Shown here: in pieces, positions 6,260-13,379 of the stretch | How positions within the stretch are numbered: the stretch's first letter is position 1 | Layout of the letters: each line of letters starts with the position of its first letter | Notes under the pieces: model-generated | Database searches by the model: none | What the model saw: the letters and a program-made list of their open reading frames with translations, nothing else | What the model was told of the DNA's origin: nothing | Assembly: GCA_902797005.1 (NCBI GenBank) | Contig: CADBRE010000075.1 | Span: 1 to 15,433 of the forward strand | Length of the DNA: 15,433 nt | DNA from: an uncultured Erysipelotrichaceae bacterium | GTDB taxonomy: Bacteria; Bacillota_I; Bacilli_A; RF39; UBA660 | Direction: 5' to 3' | Made by a program: the position numbers and the translations under genes

Positions 6260-6289
6260 TTGCTTTAAATGTTTAAATCTTGGTATAAT
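6260..6289 (+). promoter_or_regulatory. murT-gatD promoter with extended -10
   Basis: TGG-TATAAT (6281-6289) is a full extended -10 element; the -35 (TTGCTT, 6260-6265, 18-nt spacer) is weak. The predicted start near 6296 lies after the upstream in-frame ATG at 6269, which is why murT is started at 6311. The leader would be only about 15 nt. Confidence 0.6.
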
Positions 6290-6310: not shown

Positions 6311-7627
6311 ATGAAAGTATTAGTTATTATAATTTGTAAGATTATTAGATTTTTTGGAAAGCTTATGAAAAGAGGTTCTTCTCTTCCTGGATATATAGCT
6401 ATTAAATTAGATAAGAATATTTTATCTAAAATGGATTTGCCAGAAAACATAATTATGGTTACAGGAAGTAATGGTAAAACTACTACAACTGAAATGATTG
6501 CCTCTAGTCTTAAAATGAATGGATATACCGTTGGGACTAATGAAGAAGGTTCTAACCAAATAGCTGGTGTTGCTACTATGATTATTAATAATTCTAATAT
6601 ATTTGGTAAGTGTAAAAAGGATGCTTTAGTTATTGAAAGTGATGAAAGGTATGCTAAAGATACTTGTAAATATATTCATCCTAAGTATTTCGTTGTAACT
6701 AATCTATATAGAGATCAAATGACTAGAAATGCTCATCCAGAAAGTGTTTATGAAGCTGTTAAAGATGCCGTTCACGATGACATGCATTTAATTTTAAATA
6801 GTGATGATCCGTTATCTAGCATGTTAGGATATAATAGAGATAATGTAACATATGTTGGTATTGAAGAGAATCAATTTAGCACTAAAGAAAATAACTCGGC
6901 GTATAATGATGGCGTATATTGTCCTGTTTGTAAGGGAAAGATGAAGTATGAATATTATCATTTTTCTCATATAGGAAAGTATGAATGCACTAAGTGCGAG
7001 TTTAAAAGGGCCAATCCTTTATATAAAGTTACAGATGTTAATCTAAGTGGTGGATATATTAAAATCAATGGTAGCAGCACTTTAAGGATGCATATGAAGG
7101 GATACTATAATGCATATAATTTGCTTTATGCATTTACTGTTTTATCTTTAATGGGAATTGAGGAAGAAAAAATAGTTAAAGCGCTAGATGATTACACAAT
7201 ACAAAACGATAGGGTTCAAGAGTTTAACCTTAATAAAGCAAAGGCAATTTTATTGACAAGCAAGCATGAGAACTCCATTAACTATAATCAAAATATAGAT
7301 TATGTTATTAGAGAGAATAAAGAGTTTACAATATGTTTTATACTTGACGCGATTAGTAGAAAGTATTTTACTACAGATACTTCATGGCTTTGGGATATAG
7401 ATTTTGAAAAACTAGATAATCCTTTAGTTAAGAAAATAGTTCTAGCTGGCAAATATTCTCCTGATTTAGCTATTAGGTTTAATTATACAAATATTGATAA
7501 AGATAAAATAGTTAAAACATCTGATTTAGATGAGATGATGAAAATACTAAATAAAGAAGAAAATGATGTTTATGTTCTAACTTGTTTTGCAGATAGAATG
7601 AAGTTTATAGAAAGGGCTCGTAAATAA
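6311..7627 (+). CDS. murT: Lipid II isoglutaminyl synthase, Mur-ligase subunit MurT
   Basis: 438 residues. In the MurT/GatD complex this subunit activates the alpha-carboxyl of D-Glu in lipid II with ATP and amidates it to D-iso-Gln, at the inner face of the membrane. Visible are the N-terminal GSSLPGYIA stretch (22-30), the P-loop TGSNGKTTTT (51-60), NLYRDQ (131-136), a zinc ribbon with Cys204, Cys207, Cys226 and Cys229, and the C-terminal DUF1727 domain with DTSWLWDIDFE (356-366), whose Asp356 corresponds to the conserved Asp of that domain. The KNPAG-type motif usual near residue 315 is replaced by TSKHENS. Start at 6311, not 6269, because the promoter lies between them and the family starts with this MK-rich helix. 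It overlaps gatD by one base. Confidence 0.93.
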   Translation: MKVLVIIICKIIRFFGKLMKRGSSLPGYIAIKLDKNILSKMDLPENIIMVTGSNGKTTTTEMIASSLKMNGYTVGTNEEGSNQIAGVATMIINNSNIFGKCKKDALVIESDERYAKDTCKYIHPKYFVVTNLYRDQMTRNAHPESVYEAVKDAVHDDMHLILNSDDPLSSMLGYNRDNVTYVGIEENQFSTKENNSAYNDGVYCPVCKGKMKYEYYHFSHIGKYECTKCEFKRANPLYKVTDVNLSGGYIKINGSSTLRMHMKGYYNAYNLLYAFTVLSLMGIEEEKIVKALDDYTIQNDRVQEFNLNKAKAILLTSKHENSINYNQNIDYVIRENKEFTICFILDAISRKYFTTDTSWLWDIDFEKLDNPLVKKIVLAGKYSPDLAIRFNYTNIDKDKIVKTSDLDEMMKILNKEENDVYVLTCFADRMKFIERARK

Positions 7628-8337
7628 TGAGAATAAATATATTACATTTATATTATGATTTAATGAATCTTTATGGAGGATATGCGAATGTATTACTACT
7701 TTCTAAACATTTAAGAGATCAAGGTTTTGAGGTCAATGTAGATAAAAAGACTCTTGGCGAAGTGATTAATTTTAACAATTATGATTTTATCTTTATTGGC
7801 GAAGGAACTGAAAGAAATAGAGATTTAATTTTAAGAGATTTAGTTCGCTACAAAGATGATCTTGTTAAGTTTATAGACGAAAATAAGCTTTTATTAATGA
7901 CAGGTATCACTTATGAGATTCTTGGTAAAGCAATTGATAATGATGAAGCTCTTGGTTTATTTGATTTTAGGACTATATCAACTAAGAATAGAATTACAAG
8001 TGATGTTATACTTACCTGTGATTTTCTAAGTAAGAAAACAGTCGGGTTTATTAATACTTCATCTAAAGTTACAGATAACAAACATCCTTTGTTTAAGATA
8101 GTTAAGATTTCTGGCGAGAGTGAAGAAAAAATAGATTTTGTAAATGAAGGCTTTCACTACAAGAATGTTTTTGGAACATTTATTACTGGACCTATACTTG
8201 TAAGAAATCCACATATTCTTAAGTATTTTGTTGATGTCTTGGGAAAGCAAAAAATGAGTGATTTTAAATATAAAGAAATTAGCTATAAAGATGAGGAAGA
8301 TAGTTATAATTTAGCAATCAGTGAATTAGAAAAGTAA
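7627..8337 (+). CDS. gatD: GatD-like glutamine amidotransferase subunit lacking the catalytic Cys and His
   Basis: 236 residues, ATG overlapping the murT stop (TAATG). Normally GatD hydrolyses glutamine and passes ammonia to MurT. The family fold is clear: LHLYYDLMNLYG (6-17), FIFIGEG (54-60), ALGLFDFRT (108-116), EGFHYKNVFGTF (174-185) and GPILVRNP (188-195). However the nucleophile loop, ICGGYQFLG in S. aureus with Cys94, reads MTGITYEILG here (Thr92), and the GTYLHGP motif with His189 reads GTFITGP (Thr187). The only cysteine is Cys131, in another part of the fold, and the GFENH stretch reads GFINT. The frame is intact, with no sign of decay. I therefore infer a glutaminase-dead, possibly structural subunit; the gene symbol is by homology and position. 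Confidence 0.88.
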   Translation: MRINILHLYYDLMNLYGGYANVLLLSKHLRDQGFEVNVDKKTLGEVINFNNYDFIFIGEGTERNRDLILRDLVRYKDDLVKFIDENKLLLMTGITYEILGKAIDNDEALGLFDFRTISTKNRITSDVILTCDFLSKKTVGFINTSSKVTDNKHPLFKIVKISGESEEKIDFVNEGFHYKNVFGTFITGPILVRNPHILKYFVDVLGKQKMSDFKYKEISYKDEEDSYNLAISELEK

Positions 8338-8364
8338 TGAATGAGGTTAATCATTCATTACTTT
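8331..8364. terminator. Bidirectional terminator between gatD and the HipA-like gene
   Basis: A perfect 14-bp inverted repeat (8331-8344 with 8351-8364) with loop GGTTAA. The gatD stop lies in the left arm and the HipA-like stop in the right arm. T-rich sequence follows on the plus strand (CTTTTA); the minus side has only a short T run. It serves both convergent genes. Confidence 0.85.
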
Positions 8365-9520
8365 CTTTTAAGTCTTTTAAATACTCTATTCTGTAGTTAA
8401 TACCTTTTACCACTTTGTCTATTCTATCTTCAGACATATCAGTATACATAATATATTCGTGGAGTGTATTATTTAATATGTTTGGAATGTCATTTAATTT
8501 ATCTAAGTCATACAAGCTTAAGTCAATATATTTAATTAAATCCGAGAATCTTGCATTAATATTATTAAATAGTTTGTATTTACCATTAGTAAAATCAAGT
8601 TCCATCAATGTTTTGTCGCAACAAAGCCCCTGACCATTATCAAATATGGGCATAGTTTTTTCTATTTTTAATGTTTCTACATTTCTAATTACACCATAGT
8701 TTTTCATATGCCTATCATAGTTCATCATTATATAATCAATCAAATACATATTAGATAGTTCTTTTTCTGGATCCGTTATACCCATGTCCCTCAAAAGGTT
8801 TATATAATGGGTATAATCGCTGTCATTATTACTTTGTTTTTTACTAGTAAAAATATCATAAGCTGAAATAATTTCTTCATTACTATTTAATGCATTATCA
8901 CAAACAGATACTAATTTATTATTATAAGTAGTAATCTTATAAGAAACATGATCTATGTTTAGTCTATCACATATTAAAGATGCGATATACTCATTAATTG
9001 GTTCTTGATTAGCTAAAGCGTAAGTTCCTTTCATAAGTTTTCGCTTTCCTTCATCTATGAGCCAAGCTTTAGAAAGCATACCATCAGTTGTGTTATTAGG
9101 AGAGGCCAAACTTACTCTATGTTCTATGTTAGAAGAATATGTAACTTCCAAATATCCTAAATACTCAAAGTCGTTGTCAAAAAAGTTTATATTCTCCCAA
9201 AGGACATCGCTGTTTTCTTCTTTAATCCAATATTGATCTGACAAAGATAATCCAAATGATTTAAGCAAGAGTTCTTCTGGATATGAAACGCCTATGTTCT
9301 CAAGTAAACTGCGCAAATCTTTTCTCCAAGATGGTATTCCTCTTCCTTTAAACCATTCATTTAATGCTTTAGAAACATTTTTAGATTTATCATTATATGC
9401 ATTATAAACTTGCATAGGGGCATATTCTATATTGTATATTTCTATTATATCTTTAAATGTATTATCATCCATTTCCGCTTTTAATACTTCGGTATTTTTA
9501 TTCATTAATATTACATTCAT
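8351..9520 (-). CDS. HipA-like kinase-domain protein
   Basis: 389 residues. The C-terminal part has HipA/CtkA-type kinase marks: a substrate/ATP-binding stretch GMLSKAWL...KLMKGTY (147-167, Lys164), the catalytic loop NYDRHMKNYG (267-276) with Asp269 and Asn274, and the metal-binding Asp294 in PIFDNGQGL. The N-terminal 110 residues differ from E. coli HipA and carry GRGIPSWR (59-66) and FGLSLSDQYWI (89-99), a pattern I associate with stand-alone HipA-domain proteins of gut Clostridia and Bacilli. No hipB-like antitoxin gene or helix-turn-helix protein is next to it. AAGGAGA lies 10 nt before the ATG at 9520. It sits 25 nt after the ATP-grasp gene and is probably cotranscribed. The phosphorylation target is unknown, so a toxin role is not established. 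It ends in TGA. Confidence 0.8.
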   Translation of the reverse strand: MNVILMNKNTEVLKAEMDDNTFKDIIEIYNIEYAPMQVYNAYNDKSKNVSKALNEWFKGRGIPSWRKDLRSLLENIGVSYPEELLLKSFGLSLSDQYWIKEENSDVLWENINFFDNDFEYLGYLEVTYSSNIEHRVSLASPNNTTDGMLSKAWLIDEGKRKLMKGTYALANQEPINEYIASLICDRLNIDHVSYKITTYNNKLVSVCDNALNSNEEIISAYDIFTSKKQSNNDSDYTHYINLLRDMGITDPEKELSNMYLIDYIMMNYDRHMKNYGVIRNVETLKIEKTMPIFDNGQGLCCDKTLMELDFTNGKYKLFNNINARFSDLIKYIDLSLYDLDKLNDIPNILNNTLHEYIMYTDMSEDRIDKVVKGINYRIEYLKDLKESNE

Positions 9521-9545: not shown

Positions 9546-10541
9546 TTATTTCATTATTTTTTTGTATTTTGCAAGTAGCCCTTCCTTTTTAGTTACAAAT
9601 GATGGTTTAACTTGATAAACTCCTGGAAAACAGTTACCTTCTACTATTACTGGGCCGTTTTTGCTAATTGCAACATCCCAGCCAACATAGCCAATTTCAG
9701 GAACTACTTTTGCACATTCTTCTACTAATTTAACAGCTTCTTGAAACTCAGGAACTTCAAAACCAATTATTTCTTTCTTTGATAATGGATGCACTTTGTA
9801 TATGTTGTCTTCTCTATCTATCGCAGGAGCAAAAACCTTACCTTTGTCATCTACAAACGTGTACATTCCTCCATTTGAAAAGTTATCTATTACTCCACCA
9901 TTACCTATTTTTAGGACTGCCTGCAAAAAATAGGATTTTCCATCTTTATAGAAAGTAAACATTCTTAAAGTATTAACTGATTTATCGTATAATGTATTCA
10001 TTTTTTCATTCTGAACAATTACTTCTTCAATTAGTAGTTGTTTGTTTTTAATTAGATTATCATAAACTTTTTTGGCATCTTTTTCATTAATGAAGGAGAA
10101 CTTTTCTATTCCTTCGCCGCCTGAAGCATCAATTGGTTTAACAATAATATCTTTATGTTTCTTAAAAAACTTTAAAAAATCATTAAAGCTTTTATCTTCT
10201 AGATATAGATATTCTCTTTTTAAATATTTTGCAAATATTTCATTAAACTTAATTTTATCTTCAAATTTGTAAAAGCTATTTTTATCATTATATTTGCTAA
10301 CAATTTCATTATTCTTTCTTCTTGTTAAATATGTCTCTCTTTCTTTTTTGTTTAAGTTATAAAACTCAAACTCCTGATAATCATAATATCCTGCTCCATA
10401 TTTTAAGCCACAGTAAATGATATCAAATAGAGTAAAGAAATAATTCTTGTTAGCTTTTTTTGATATAGACTTACTTATTTTAAACATATTTTTGTAATCT
10501 AGTTTTACTATTCTTTCAATCATATATTTTATTCTTTTCAT
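9546..10541 (-). CDS. Sugar-transfer-associated ATP-grasp enzyme
   Basis: 331 residues from ATG 10541; a GTG at 10550 is also in frame, but it forms part of the ribosome site AGGTGA and is rejected. ATP-grasp features: VKPIDASGGEGI (134-145, ATP-binding lysine and Gly-rich loop), LLIEEVIVQN (169-178), SVNTLRMFTF (188-197), NFSNGGMY (220-227), and the metal-binding end YVGWDVAISKNGPVIVEGN (285-303). This order matches the ATPgrasp_ST family, found in capsule, teichoic-acid and exopolysaccharide clusters and thought to ligate a carboxylate to an amine or other nucleophile. The N-terminal 60 residues are basic, with the GLKYGAGYYDYQEFEFY segment typical of that family. No glycosyltransferase is adjacent, so the substrate is open. 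It is followed by the HipA-like gene, probably as a two-gene operon. Confidence 0.82.
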   Translation of the reverse strand: MKRIKYMIERIVKLDYKNMFKISKSISKKANKNYFFTLFDIIYCGLKYGAGYYDYQEFEFYNLNKKERETYLTRRKNNEIVSKYNDKNSFYKFEDKIKFNEIFAKYLKREYLYLEDKSFNDFLKFFKKHKDIIVKPIDASGGEGIEKFSFINEKDAKKVYDNLIKNKQLLIEEVIVQNEKMNTLYDKSVNTLRMFTFYKDGKSYFLQAVLKIGNGGVIDNFSNGGMYTFVDDKGKVFAPAIDREDNIYKVHPLSKKEIIGFEVPEFQEAVKLVEECAKVVPEIGYVGWDVAISKNGPVIVEGNCFPGVYQVKPSFVTKKEGLLAKYKKIMK

Positions 10542-10558
10542 TAGTTTCACCTAACAAA

Positions 10559-10567
10559 AGTATATCA
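10559..10567 (-). promoter_or_regulatory. Possible extended -10 promoter of the ATP-grasp/HipA pair
   Basis: TGA-TATACT on the minus strand, 17 nt before the ATG at 10541 and just after the terminator of the upstream gene. There is no clear -35, and the leader would be very short, as for murT. Confidence 0.35.
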
Positions 10568-10577
10568 TATTAAAAGG

Positions 10578-10603
10578 AAAAAAGATAGCAAATAATAGCT
10601 ACC
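10578..10603 (-). terminator. Terminator of the VTC/DUF4956/beta-helix operon
   Basis: On the minus strand, GGTAGC (10603-10598) pairs with GCTATC (10589-10584; one G-U pair) around an 8-nt loop and is followed by six T (10583-10578), right after the stop at 10612. Confidence 0.75.
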
Positions 10604-10611
10604 TTCTTCAT

Positions 10612-12018
10612 CTATCTCATTCTTTGTCTTCCTCCTTGATTTTGAGTATTAGCGTTTTGACTTTCGCTACCGCCTCCTCTCATGTTTCCAGGCATCATGC
10701 CTCCTTGCATACCGCCCATCATCTGGTTAGTTATTTGATTTGTTGTTTGACCGTTTACAATAATTGTTCCTCCAGTATATTTAGCTTCCCCGTCATAGTC
10801 AAATGGTGATTGTCCAGTTATATTGATTGTTCCTCCATTAACATAAATATTGCCATTAGAGTCTATTGCATCAGTATCACCTTGCCCCATTTTAATTGTT
10901 ATGTTTCCTCCATTTATTTCAATAGCCACTTCATATAGGTTAGACTTATTTCCGGCATTTATTCCGTCATCACTTGCAGATATATTAATATTGCCATCAT
11001 TTATTTTTACATATGTTGCTTCTAATCCTTCTGCTGCAGTAATGTTAAGCGTTCCTCCATTTATTTCTAACATTCCATCAGCGTGCAGTGCATCATCCTT
11101 GCTATTAATAGTTATAGTACCTTTATTTATTTGAATATTTCCGTTAGAGTGGATACCATCATCTGTAGTGTTTATATCAAATGTACCACCATCTATTTGA
11201 ATTAGTGTATCAGCTTTTAAACCTTTAGCGGTAGAAGTGATTGCGTTACCTGTTGTTTTAATAGTAAAGTCTCCGCCTTTTATTAGAAGGGTTGTAACCG
11301 CTTCAATGCCATCATTTACTGAAGTTATGTTAAATTCTCCACCTTCAATAACAACATATCCTTTATCTTCTTCATTACTATCAGTTGATTTAATAGCATC
11401 TCCTCCAGCATTTATAGTAAAATCACCACCAGTAATTACAACGCTGTCTTTACCACGAATAGCATCATCTTTACTTGTTATAGTAATGTTTCCATTATTT
11501 ATTACTAAATCATCTTTAGATACAATACCGTCTTCATAATTAGCATTTACTATTAATGCTCCTTCTCCTTCAATAAATAAGTCATCTGTAGAATAAATCG
11601 CACCGTTTGCTTCGGCATCCGAAAAGCTATATGTACTTGAATCTGTTACTGTATTTGTAGTTCCTTCTTTTAAATAAATTACTACATTTTCTGCATTAGC
11701 TACATATATAGCTGGTCCATTTGTACTAGTGATGTTTACTCCATCAAGCACTAATTTAACTGTATCTTCAGTATCAATATATACTGTGGTATTTATTTCT
11801 CCTGTTAATGTATATTCTCCTCCAGCTGTTATTTTATAGTCGCTTGTAACTTCTTTGGCACTTAAGTTAGATGTATCAGCACTTGTATTATAGTTAATAT
11901 TAGATCCACTTATTTCACTAGATGATTTACTCTTACTGTTTAAGTAGAATACTACTCCTACTGCTACTGCTAAAACAGCTACCACTATTATTAAAATTAT
12001 TGTTTTCTTATTTTTCAT
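10612..12018 (-). CDS. Membrane-anchored Cthe_2159-like beta-helix carbohydrate-binding protein (DUF4353)
   Basis: 468 residues. Lys-rich residues 1-5 and a hydrophobic segment (6-26) act as signal anchor or uncleaved signal peptide. A Ser-rich linker precedes about 340 residues of parallel beta-helix turns of 18-22 residues with repeated motifs such as IEGGEFNITS, DDGIHSNGNIQI and KDDALHADGMLEI, rich in Asp and Asn as in the Ca-binding Cthe_2159 family, which binds acidic or cellulosic polysaccharides. The tail (about 434-468) is unusual: repeated GGM motifs (MMGGMQGGMMPGNMRGGG), then Gln/Asn, ending in Arg-rich residues. The ATG at 12018 is one base after the DUF4956 stop, with GGAGGAGGG upstream. 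It is the last gene of the VTC operon; this trio recurs in Bacillota. The polysaccharide or other ligand is not known. Confidence 0.88.
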   Translation of the reverse strand: MKNKKTIILIIVVAVLAVAVGVVFYLNSKSKSSSEISGSNINYNTSADTSNLSAKEVTSDYKITAGGEYTLTGEINTTVYIDTEDTVKLVLDGVNITSTNGPAIYVANAENVVIYLKEGTTNTVTDSSTYSFSDAEANGAIYSTDDLFIEGEGALIVNANYEDGIVSKDDLVINNGNITITSKDDAIRGKDSVVITGGDFTINAGGDAIKSTDSNEEDKGYVVIEGGEFNITSVNDGIEAVTTLLIKGGDFTIKTTGNAITSTAKGLKADTLIQIDGGTFDINTTDDGIHSNGNIQINKGTITINSKDDALHADGMLEINGGTLNITAAEGLEATYVKINDGNINISASDDGINAGNKSNLYEVAIEINGGNITIKMGQGDTDAIDSNGNIYVNGGTINITGQSPFDYDGEAKYTGGTIIVNGQTTNQITNQMMGGMQGGMMPGNMRGGGSESQNANTQNQGGRQRMR

Positions 12019-12019
12019 A

Positions 12020-12682
12020 TTATAGTCCCTCCTCCATTAATGGGTGTGATAAACTCACTTTTAAATTACCATTTCTCACTCTAATTTCATCAAGAAAAGC
12101 TTTTTCTTCTTTAGCATCTTTTAGCTTAACATTATAAGTTAATTCATACATACTGCCCATATTGATTGTTTTGCTTGCAAATAGATTTGCTTCCTTTGTA
12201 TAAACTTTAAATATATCATCAAATATACTTGTGTAATCCATGTCTTCTGGAACGACTACTTTAAGAACTTTTACTCCACTTTTGTCTTCTCCAAAATTAG
12301 ATACACTTAATAGCACCGTAAATAATGATATTACTGCTGTTATAAGAGCTGCGAATGCAACATATCCAGTACCACATGCAAGCCCAACTGCCATTGCAAA
12401 GAATACATTCATTATCTCTTTAGAATTACCTGGTATAGATCTAAATCTTATAAGACTAAATGATCCAAGTATTGCAATTGATGTTCCAAGATTTCCGTTA
12501 ACCATCATTATTACTGTACCTATTAAAGCAGGTATTACTGCTAAAGTAATAGCAAAGTTTTTAGAATAAGCACTTGTCTTCATATGAACAAAACTTATTA
12601 CAAGCCCCAGTAAAAGAGCTGCTCCTATACATTTCACAAAACTGATCAAACTTAAACTTTCTGTTAAAACACTACTAAACAT
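12020..12682 (-). CDS. DUF4956 integral membrane protein
   Basis: 220 residues. The N-terminal half has about four membrane segments (14-32, 43-61, 66-78 and 92-127). The signature between the third and fourth is GSFSLIRFRSIPGNSKEI (73-90), then VFFAMAVGLACGTGY (93-107), characteristic of DUF4956. Residues 135-220 form a soluble domain, probably cytoplasmic, containing VLKVVVPEDMDY and a mixed-charge helix. Function is unknown. The family is found next to VTC-domain polyphosphate polymerases and CotH or beta-helix surface proteins, as here, so a membrane partner for the polymerase or a channel-like component is a reasonable inference. The ATG at 12682 overlaps the VTC gene by 8 bases, so translation is coupled. 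Confidence 0.9.
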   Translation of the reverse strand: MFSSVLTESLSLISFVKCIGAALLLGLVISFVHMKTSAYSKNFAITLAVIPALIGTVIMMVNGNLGTSIAILGSFSLIRFRSIPGNSKEIMNVFFAMAVGLACGTGYVAFAALITAVISLFTVLLSVSNFGEDKSGVKVLKVVVPEDMDYTSIFDDIFKVYTKEANLFASKTINMGSMYELTYNVKLKDAKEEKAFLDEIRVRNGNLKVSLSHPLMEEGL

Positions 12683-13379
12683 AAACTTTCTCCTCCTTTA
12701 TTTGTTCGTTAGCATATATTTTCCCATATTTAGAAAATGAAGTTTCGTAAATATTATTCTTTGAAAGAATTCTTGTAAGCCACAATGGATAGTTATTTAA
12801 TGTTTTAATATCCATTATGTACATATCGTCTTTAAAATATAAACTACCAGCGTCTCCCATTTCTAATCTCAAATCATCTCTCCTACTTCTTATTTTATAG
12901 TCAAATGTAATTCTAAGATCTGGTTCATTAAGTGCATCATAACTTTTTCTATCATAAGCAATAAATATCTTTGGTTTTAGATTTTTTGTTTTTATCGTAT
13001 AATCTATTTCATTTAATATTTGTTTATTGACATCCAAGTTCTTTTCACCTTTCATATATTTATAAAAATCACTTAGTTTAAAGGCTATTCTTCTTTTTCC
13101 TACTACACCTTTATATTTCTTTTTGATTTCTAAGAATACTTGTGAATCCATATCAGGGACTATGTAAGATCTAAGTCTTACTTTCTCTTTATATTTTGGT
13201 TTTTCAAGTGAAGATATTATCGTATCATCTTTATCAGTATCAAAATATATATTACATATTTTACTATCCGGGTGAATATCTGGTTTTATATATTCACTTA
13301 AATCACTAAGTATTTTTTCATACTCACTTTTAGTAAGCAAATACTTTTTTTCAACTCTTTCAAAGTTTTCAATTATCAT
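12675..13379 (-). CDS. VTC-domain polyphosphate polymerase
   Basis: 234 residues, a single VTC domain of the CYTH/triphosphate-tunnel superfamily, which makes polyphosphate from ATP. Tunnel residues occur in the expected order: RVEKKYLL (8-15), NIYFDT (43-48), KVRLRSY (66-72), FLEIKKKYKGVVGKRR (82-97), IAYDRKSY, DLRITFD with a following RSRR, and near the end MDIKTLNNYPLWL (the usual Glu of this E-x-K pair is Asp) and SFSKYG. There is no SPX domain and no membrane segment, so it is cytoplasmic and probably held at the membrane by DUF4956. The ATG at 13379 has AAAGGA upstream. It is the first gene of a three-gene operon preceded by a Pho-box-like array, which fits a phosphate-related role. Other nucleotide or sugar substrates cannot be excluded. 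Confidence 0.9.
   Translation of the reverse strand: MIIENFERVEKKYLLTKSEYEKILSDLSEYIKPDIHPDSKICNIYFDTDKDDTIISSLEKPKYKEKVRLRSYIVPDMDSQVFLEIKKKYKGVVGKRRIAFKLSDFYKYMKGEKNLDVNKQILNEIDYTIKTKNLKPKIFIAYDRKSYDALNEPDLRITFDYKIRSRRDDLRLEMGDAGSLYFKDDMYIMDIKTLNNYPLWLTRILSKNNIYETSFSKYGKIYANEQIKEEKVYV

Follow-up and report, generated by a model that had tools for sequence, protein, structure and literature searches.

Why is a protein with the fold of GatD kept next to MurT when the residues of the glutaminase reaction are gone? This question is raised by a gene pair in the window, by which we mean the whole analysed stretch of 15,433 nucleotides; its host genome is a draft of 1.02 Mb in 175 contigs, 90.67% complete. 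The two genes are:

6311..7627, plus strand: MurT-like Mur ligase partner (Pfam MurT_C and Mur_ligase_M; PDB MurT)
7627..8337, plus strand: pseudo-GatD, a GATase_3 fold without the catalytic Cys and His (Pfam, PDB matches, predicted structure)

The murT reading frame as listed begins at 6269, and we favour 6311 as the likelier start because relatives lack residues 2-14 of the longer protein, which are gaps in at least 90% of the rows of the clade alignment. The gatD reading frame is intact, encodes 236 amino acids and overlaps murT by one base, as noted before from the sequence (TAATG, 7625-7629). Elsewhere in the window, on the minus strand, lie a candidate HipA-like kinase with a Pfam score under the cut-off (8351-9520) and a one-strand run of genes (9546-13379) for a sugar-transfer ATP-grasp protein, a Cthe_2159 carbohydrate-binding protein, a DUF4956 protein and a VTC domain protein. 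A conserved small protein of about 77 amino acids adjoins murT at L151:6253-6483 and at 33 further loci, mostly upstream and on the opposite strand; a Pfam search of a representative gave no match.

The window GatD has the GATase_3 fold homologous to GatD, as the sequence-only reading had stated. It matches the Pfam profile PF07685 (E 2e-15), its best PDB sequence matches are the GatD proteins of S. aureus and of streptococci (E 2e-25), and its model (pLDDT 94.6) fits S. aureus GatD 6gs2_A with a TM of 0.87; structures were predicted for a selection of 48 GatD and 30 MurT sequences, with the subunits modelled singly. The catalytic Cys94 and His189 are both missing. In an ungapped stretch of the alignment Gly93 stands opposite the nucleophile Cys94 of S. 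aureus, and Thr187 stands opposite His189. The sequence-only reading was therefore right on the loss of both residues, on Thr187 and on the only Cys of the protein lying elsewhere (C131), but its placing of Thr92 opposite Cys94 is one position off, Thr92 being aligned with Ile93. Against the NCBIfam equivalog NF045636 (GatD) the protein reaches 101.3 bits, the cut-off being 400. Three sites, all located by alignment, differ from the known enzymes:

7678..7680, plus strand: Gly18 at the site of the proposed third catalytic residue (S. pneumoniae Asp32)
7900..7911, plus strand: former nucleophile elbow T92-G93-I94-T95, canonical I-C-G-[AGS], clade consensus TGN[SA]
8185..8187, plus strand: Thr187 at the position of the catalytic His189, followed by the retained GPILVRNP

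Here and below, residue roles are transferred by alignment from S. aureus and S. pneumoniae, the match of S. pneumoniae E201 to D214 being uncertain. Asp32 has been proposed as the third catalytic residue in S. pneumoniae GatD (PMC6085368); relatives in the clade have E or D at this site and the window has Gly. For the prolines of the stretch after His189 a contact role is described (PMC6113224).

Judged by its relatives, the single odd protein of the sequence-only reading is a member of a large and diverse clade. When both sites were aligned across related genomes, as had been proposed, the Cys94 position was Gly in 245 of 245 distinct clade GatDs, the window included, and Cys in none, while the His189 position was His in 0 of 245; to build this set the best 120 of 156 database matches to the window protein were added and identical sequences removed. 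A canonical panel, consisting of the best 120 of 7575 matches to one query plus two canonical family members, has both Cys and His in 122 of 122 GatDs. Counted by reading frame, the GatDs of the window, 29 family loci and 80 loci from named genomes, with several species present twice, have Gly in 110/110 and His in 0/110. Another 40 family reading frames, three of which repeat loci of the former count, divide into 38 pseudo and two canonical ones (G023, G044), the latter being the only Cys/His GatDs among the family GatD-like matches read.

Could the altered residues result from a sequencing error, a chimera or a decaying pseudogene? We regard this as having practically no chance. Intact relatives that would expose an error were not found close by: the same-genus genome G074 encodes a GatD 75% identical to that of the window, in which the same two residues, Gly and Thr, are found, and the proteins of G023 and G044 group on the canonical side. 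The 90%-identity cluster that holds the window GatD has 8 member sequences from 4 contigs, and the residues in question are common to 245 distinct sequences from many assemblies. Measured against L034 (NG86, dS about 1.1), whose GatD has a score similar to that of the G074 protein, dN/dS is 0.16 for gatD and 0.12 for murT; both genes are under purifying selection, with values well below 1, and among the relatives and in the window reading frame no evidence for error or decay was found. The former elbow is conserved in its new form (T92 98%, G93 100%, N94 93% in the clade, the window genus itself having TGIT), with variability ranks of 11, 1 and 30 among the 236 GatD positions; the former His position ranks 110. 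Nearly invariant, too, are LYG and GP[LI]L..NP. From the missing residues it is almost certain that the clade GatD has lost its glutaminase activity. Seven family genomes (G027, G063, G086, G087, G100, G113, G144) have two divergent GatD-like copies each, both pseudo, pointing to at least two subtypes. Among the matching papers listed in searches of the open-licence PMC literature, which leaves most subscription papers outside, none describes a natural GatD without the catalytic Cys.

The two genes travel together. In 145 family genomes a GatD-like match is found in 60 and a MurT_C match in 59, and the sole genome that separates the two sets is G028, where the gatD match starts at base 6 of the contig. 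The control genome, that of Lactococcus lactis, has a MurT_C match too. The gene directly upstream of gatD is murT in 123 of 128 distinct pseudo loci. Among 245 genomes drawn at phylum rank, of which the 37 listed are all of the same class or family, a MurT_C match occurs in 17, including G293 under the cut-off. The 13 MurT loci read from this draw comprise 11 canonical and two pseudo ones (G243, G236, family f14); G000, G097 and G129, also drawn, are pseudo and already known from the family counts.

Two MurT trees place pseudo and canonical sequences on opposite sides of one branch, with SH-aLRT values of 100 and 98. They contain 65 and 66 selected rows (39 pseudo plus 26 or 27 canonical), were built in quick mode with SH-aLRT support only, and have no outgroup; only the second tree includes the 11 canonical pairs taken from other families. 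Since the trees are unrooted, the one split need not mean a single origin of the loss. The group to which the window MurT belongs (SH-aLRT 99 and 100) comprises its genus mate, a Clostridia MAG, Massiliimalia with other Oscillospiraceae, and Erysipelotrichaceae; the other RF39-like copies fall outside it, which suggests that the window genus acquired the pair by horizontal transfer. Carriers include two named strains, Massiliimalia massiliensis Marseille-P2963T and M. timonensis Marseille-P3753. Record titles of related sequences mention goat cecum and colon, deer cecum and rumen, and chicken; in addition, we take RUG and Lapin, two labels on related records, to stand for rumen and rabbit.

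Is the partner still a MurT? The window protein matches MurT_C (E 3e-24) and Mur_ligase_M (E 4e-15), adjoins gatD and has a PDB MurT as a match (E 4e-60). Its model (pLDDT 90.5) fits S. pyogenes MurT 9sqj_AAA with TM 0.76/0.85 and, more poorly, S. aureus MurT 6h5e_D as a whole (TM 0.55/0.62); with pMurC 6vr7, the archaeal pseudomurein peptide ligase, TM is 0.67/0.63. Against the equivalog NF045635 (MurT) it scores 222 bits, with a cut-off of 800. The sites that matter below, again found by alignment, are:

6464..6484, plus strand: P-loop GSNGKTT, residues 66-72
6920..6997, plus strand: Cys4 zinc ribbon, C218 to C243, the fourth Cys being present in 77% of the clade
7262..7273, plus strand: K332-H-E-N335, the clade motif KxEN, replacing canonical KNP
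7355..7366, plus strand: S363-R-K-Y366, the clade motif S-R-[RK]-Y
7376..7378, plus strand: D370 (S. aureus D349, S. pneumoniae D355), kept though its His partner is gone

Numbered from 6311 instead of 6269, D370 is D356, the Asp that the sequence-only reading had listed as kept together with the P-loop and the zinc ribbon; all three are indeed in place. The P-loop, the Mg-binding Glu, the acceptor Asn and the gate Asp are present in the window, and in the clade the P-loop Lys is found in 100% of MurTs, the acceptor Asn (S. pneumoniae N85) in 121 of 122 and the Mg Glu (S. aureus E108) in 120 of 122. The gate residue Asp355 is D in 108 and E in 7 of 122 and Asp361 is kept in 121 of 122, while the loop residues Arg135, Asp136 and Arg140 are kept in 117, 120 and 120 of 122. 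The roles of these residues in ATP and Mg binding, acceptor binding, gate and interface are taken from PMC6085368 and PMC6113224; for Asp355 and Asp361 it has been proposed that they border the ammonia opening. Other contacts have changed: the contact Trp360 is Tyr in 69, Trp in 50 and another residue in 3 of 122, and the position aligned, with uncertainty, to gate Glu201 is Asp in 90, Asn in 30 and a gap in 2 of 122. Asp139 and Glu143 are not kept. In S. pneumoniae loss of these two had a minor effect on activity, and exchange of Asp139 to Ala in MurT affected GatD binding.

Besides these partial changes, the clade MurTs have motifs of their own. The KNPAG-type motif was described as altered from the sequence alone, and the window in fact reads SKHENSIN where KNP is expected between the ATP and C-terminal domains. 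KNP occurs anywhere in 121 of 122 canonical MurTs (panel assembled likewise, from the best 120 of 6235 matches to one query) against 5 of 122 in the clade, 114 of 122 clade MurTs having K-x-E-[NTD] in the right region. The motif S-R-[RK]-Y is found in its loose form in 103 of 122, immediately N-terminal to the gate Asp, where columns 364-366 are gapped in the canonical panel. R403 is present in 97% of the clade and 63% of the canonical panel, and the Asn after DDP, found in 100% of the latter, is not kept. The earlier view of a pseudo-glutaminase retained together with a changed MurT is supported by these motifs and by the clade-wide Gly and missing His. The main text of PMC12786226, which presents MurT trees, does not contain the term "gatd".

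Taken together, adjacent murT and gatD, both folds, the zinc ribbon, the ATP and Mg residues, the acceptor Asn, two gate Asp and a GP..xNP-type stretch are common to the clade and to the MurT-GatD systems of S. aureus and S. pneumoniae. Unlike these, the clade has a GatD without catalytic Cys and His and with TGN for CG[AGS], a MurT with KxEN and S-R-[RK]-Y and, in the window, scores far under the NCBIfam equivalog cut-offs. The nearest experimental counterpart is the S. aureus GatD-C94G mutant (PMC3266927), which likewise has Gly at the nucleophile position but retains His189 and a canonical MurT, whereas the natural clade lacks the His and has an altered MurT. Together with MurT, this mutant lost glutamine-dependent amidation and kept NH3-dependent amidation at pH 8.5; at pH 7.5 it showed neither (PMC3266927). 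In the same organism MurT alone and GatD alone are inactive, both being required (PMC3266927). Co-retention of the genes, the largely kept interface and this published work on canonical complexes make it very probable that the clade GatD serves as a structural partner that renders MurT competent. A comparable history is known for a relative with a different reaction: mammalian CPS I, an ammonia-dependent glutamine amidotransferase relative, has kept its glutaminase fold after loss of the catalytic Cys.

Which nucleophile would such a complex use? Free ammonia is the simplest choice, since the C94G exchange is present in the clade and gate and interface are for the most part preserved. Of the two outcomes named in the sequence-only reading, free ammonia or a different product, the published C94G result favours, by analogy, the first. 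MurT would activate a carboxylate with ATP as an acyl phosphate, as its retained residues suggest, the likeliest target being the D-Glu alpha-carboxyl of lipid I or lipid II; free ammonia would then enter at the gate facing the dead GatD site and attack the acyl phosphate to give the amide, so that the net activity would be that of an ammonia-dependent isoglutaminyl synthase. Ammonia is usually plentiful in gut and rumen-type habitats, and we offer as a suggestion that the gut habitats of the relatives could supply it. We hold ammonia as the nucleophile on a wall precursor tentatively, at a little short of an even chance. Several points tell against it: the S. aureus C94G complex, if it is a guide, used ammonia at pH 8.5 only; loss of the glutaminase alone would leave the conserved TGN, KxEN and S-R-[RK]-Y unexplained; the interface and gate are only partly kept (Trp360, the site aligned to Glu201, Asp139); and five genomes, 92-95% complete, have the pair without another Mur ligase.

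The new motifs in MurT and GatD are the main reason why we keep a second reading, in which the enzyme is a true ligase: MurT would activate the alpha-carboxyl of D-Glu, the attack would come from an amino acid or a different amine, which the new Arg-rich loop would help to hold, and the product would be D-Glu with an alpha-linked residue. This would fit S363-R364-[RK]365-Y366 before the gate Asp where canonical sequences are gapped, KxEN in place of KNP, the enrichment of R403, the lost Asn after DDP and the former elbow conserved in its new form. The likeness of the window MurT model to pMurC would also fit, although it is probably common to canonical MurT. The two kept gate Asp, as proposed borders of an ammonia opening, count against it, as do the narrowness of the canonical panel, whose members are matches of one query, and the fact that this reading names no substrate. 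We consider it possible but rather unlikely, and slightly more doubtful still is its fuller form, a two-subunit Mur-type ligase in which the dead glutaminase would be a platform for substrate or nucleophile while MurT would couple an amino acid or amine, in place of ammonia, to the D-Glu alpha-carboxyl of lipid-linked precursors. Archaeal MurT-like proteins and pMurC (6vr7) are MurT-related Mur-type ligases with no glutaminase partner reported (PMC11915815); archaea with only MurT-like proteins have, according to this paper, no GatD homologue, whereas the clade keeps a partner with the GatD fold. An alpha-linked cross-bridge, as in group B walls, was considered and dropped as a candidate of its own, as none of the papers listed by a literature search connected it with MurT; it is retained only inside the amine-ligase reading.

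A separate glutaminase could feed ammonia to MurT in trans, with the pseudo-GatD as a docking platform; the retention of both gate Asp and of a large part of the interface would fit this. The genomes speak against it: 58 of 60 family genomes with a GatD-like match have pseudo copies only, two have canonical copies only and none has both, and in each of nine additional genomes that carry a pseudo pair a single MurT_C match is present. The check for canonical beside pseudo copies covered GatD-like matches, the MurT_C matches G041:C22, G087:C95 and G100:C29 being left out, and the exclusivity is weak evidence because only two family genomes are canonical. All in all we judge a supply in trans very improbable.

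All 27 of the 27 selected genomes, among them 24 that carry the pseudo pair, have a transpeptidase match (the matches in G033 are weak). Glyco_tran_28_C is matched in 19 of 20 genomes and in 15 of the 16 with the pair; G055 has no match, and those in G077 are weak and perhaps not MurG. These matches make lipid II plausible as a substrate. Walls are predicted for most RF39 species, with some steps missing (PMC10868615), and the terms "murT" and "gatD" are absent from the main text of that paper. A wall-less host was considered and rejected, its own genome having transpeptidase matches, a MurG-type match and a fragment of another Mur ligase. MurT first appeared to be the sole Mur ligase of this genome; the only other Mur ligase match is G000:C125:22-573 (L003), a C-terminal part cut by the contig end and presumably MurE-like by its DNPR motif.

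In five genomes with the pseudo pair (G021, G043, G058, G077, G083) Mur_ligase_C is absent and Mur_ligase_M is found only in MurT, and two genomes without the pair (G034, G135) have no Mur ligase match at all, MurT included. These seven drafts are 91-95% complete, and all have a Glyco_tran_28_C match (weak in G077); transpeptidase matches are present in the first five despite the lack of another Mur ligase. That the MurT-like protein substitutes for lost MurC-F was rejected: loss of MurC-F does not track the pair, because G034 and G135 show neither.

The neighbourhood of the pair bears on a reading in which neither protein is catalytic and the complex, bound to lipid II or to a division protein, would be a scaffold or regulator. 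Genes of division or of the wall are found at most five open reading frames away in 32 of 128 distinct pseudo loci (FtsA/FtsZ in 14, MurB/MurG/FtsQ in 16); one representative per group was identified, and 32 of the 128 loci hold fewer than five reading frames. As a sign of a wall context this is weak support, because the genes are mostly in the other orientation and the lineages related. In 75% of clade MurTs Gly replaces the Thr that follows the P-loop Lys, which would fit a non-catalytic pair, but GKGS-type P-loops are usual in FolC, and the P-loop Lys, the Mg Glu, the acceptor Asn and both gate Asp hardly vary. That both proteins are non-catalytic seems quite unlikely to us.

The best reading of the sequences is a conserved pseudo-glutaminase clade of MurT-GatD complexes, in which GatD would be a structural partner while MurT would use free ammonia to amidate a lipid-linked precursor of the wall. 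The complex has been retained, its glutaminase site lost, in many uncultured Bacilli and in some Erysipelotrichaceae and Oscillospiraceae. Naming by fold only (Pfam GATase_3) assigns to such proteins an activity that is impossible by the known mechanism; the Oscillospiraceae clade protein P0114, for example, is annotated "glutamine amidotransferase". Amidation of D-Glu matters for cross-linking of the wall in several Gram-positive bacteria, and since two named Massiliimalia strains carry the pair, a muropeptide analysis is within reach. The amine-ligase reading, if true, would mean that these lineages have a wall chemistry so far undescribed for them. In this clade the C94G experiment has, as it were, been done by nature, which raises the question why GatD stays after its chemistry is gone.
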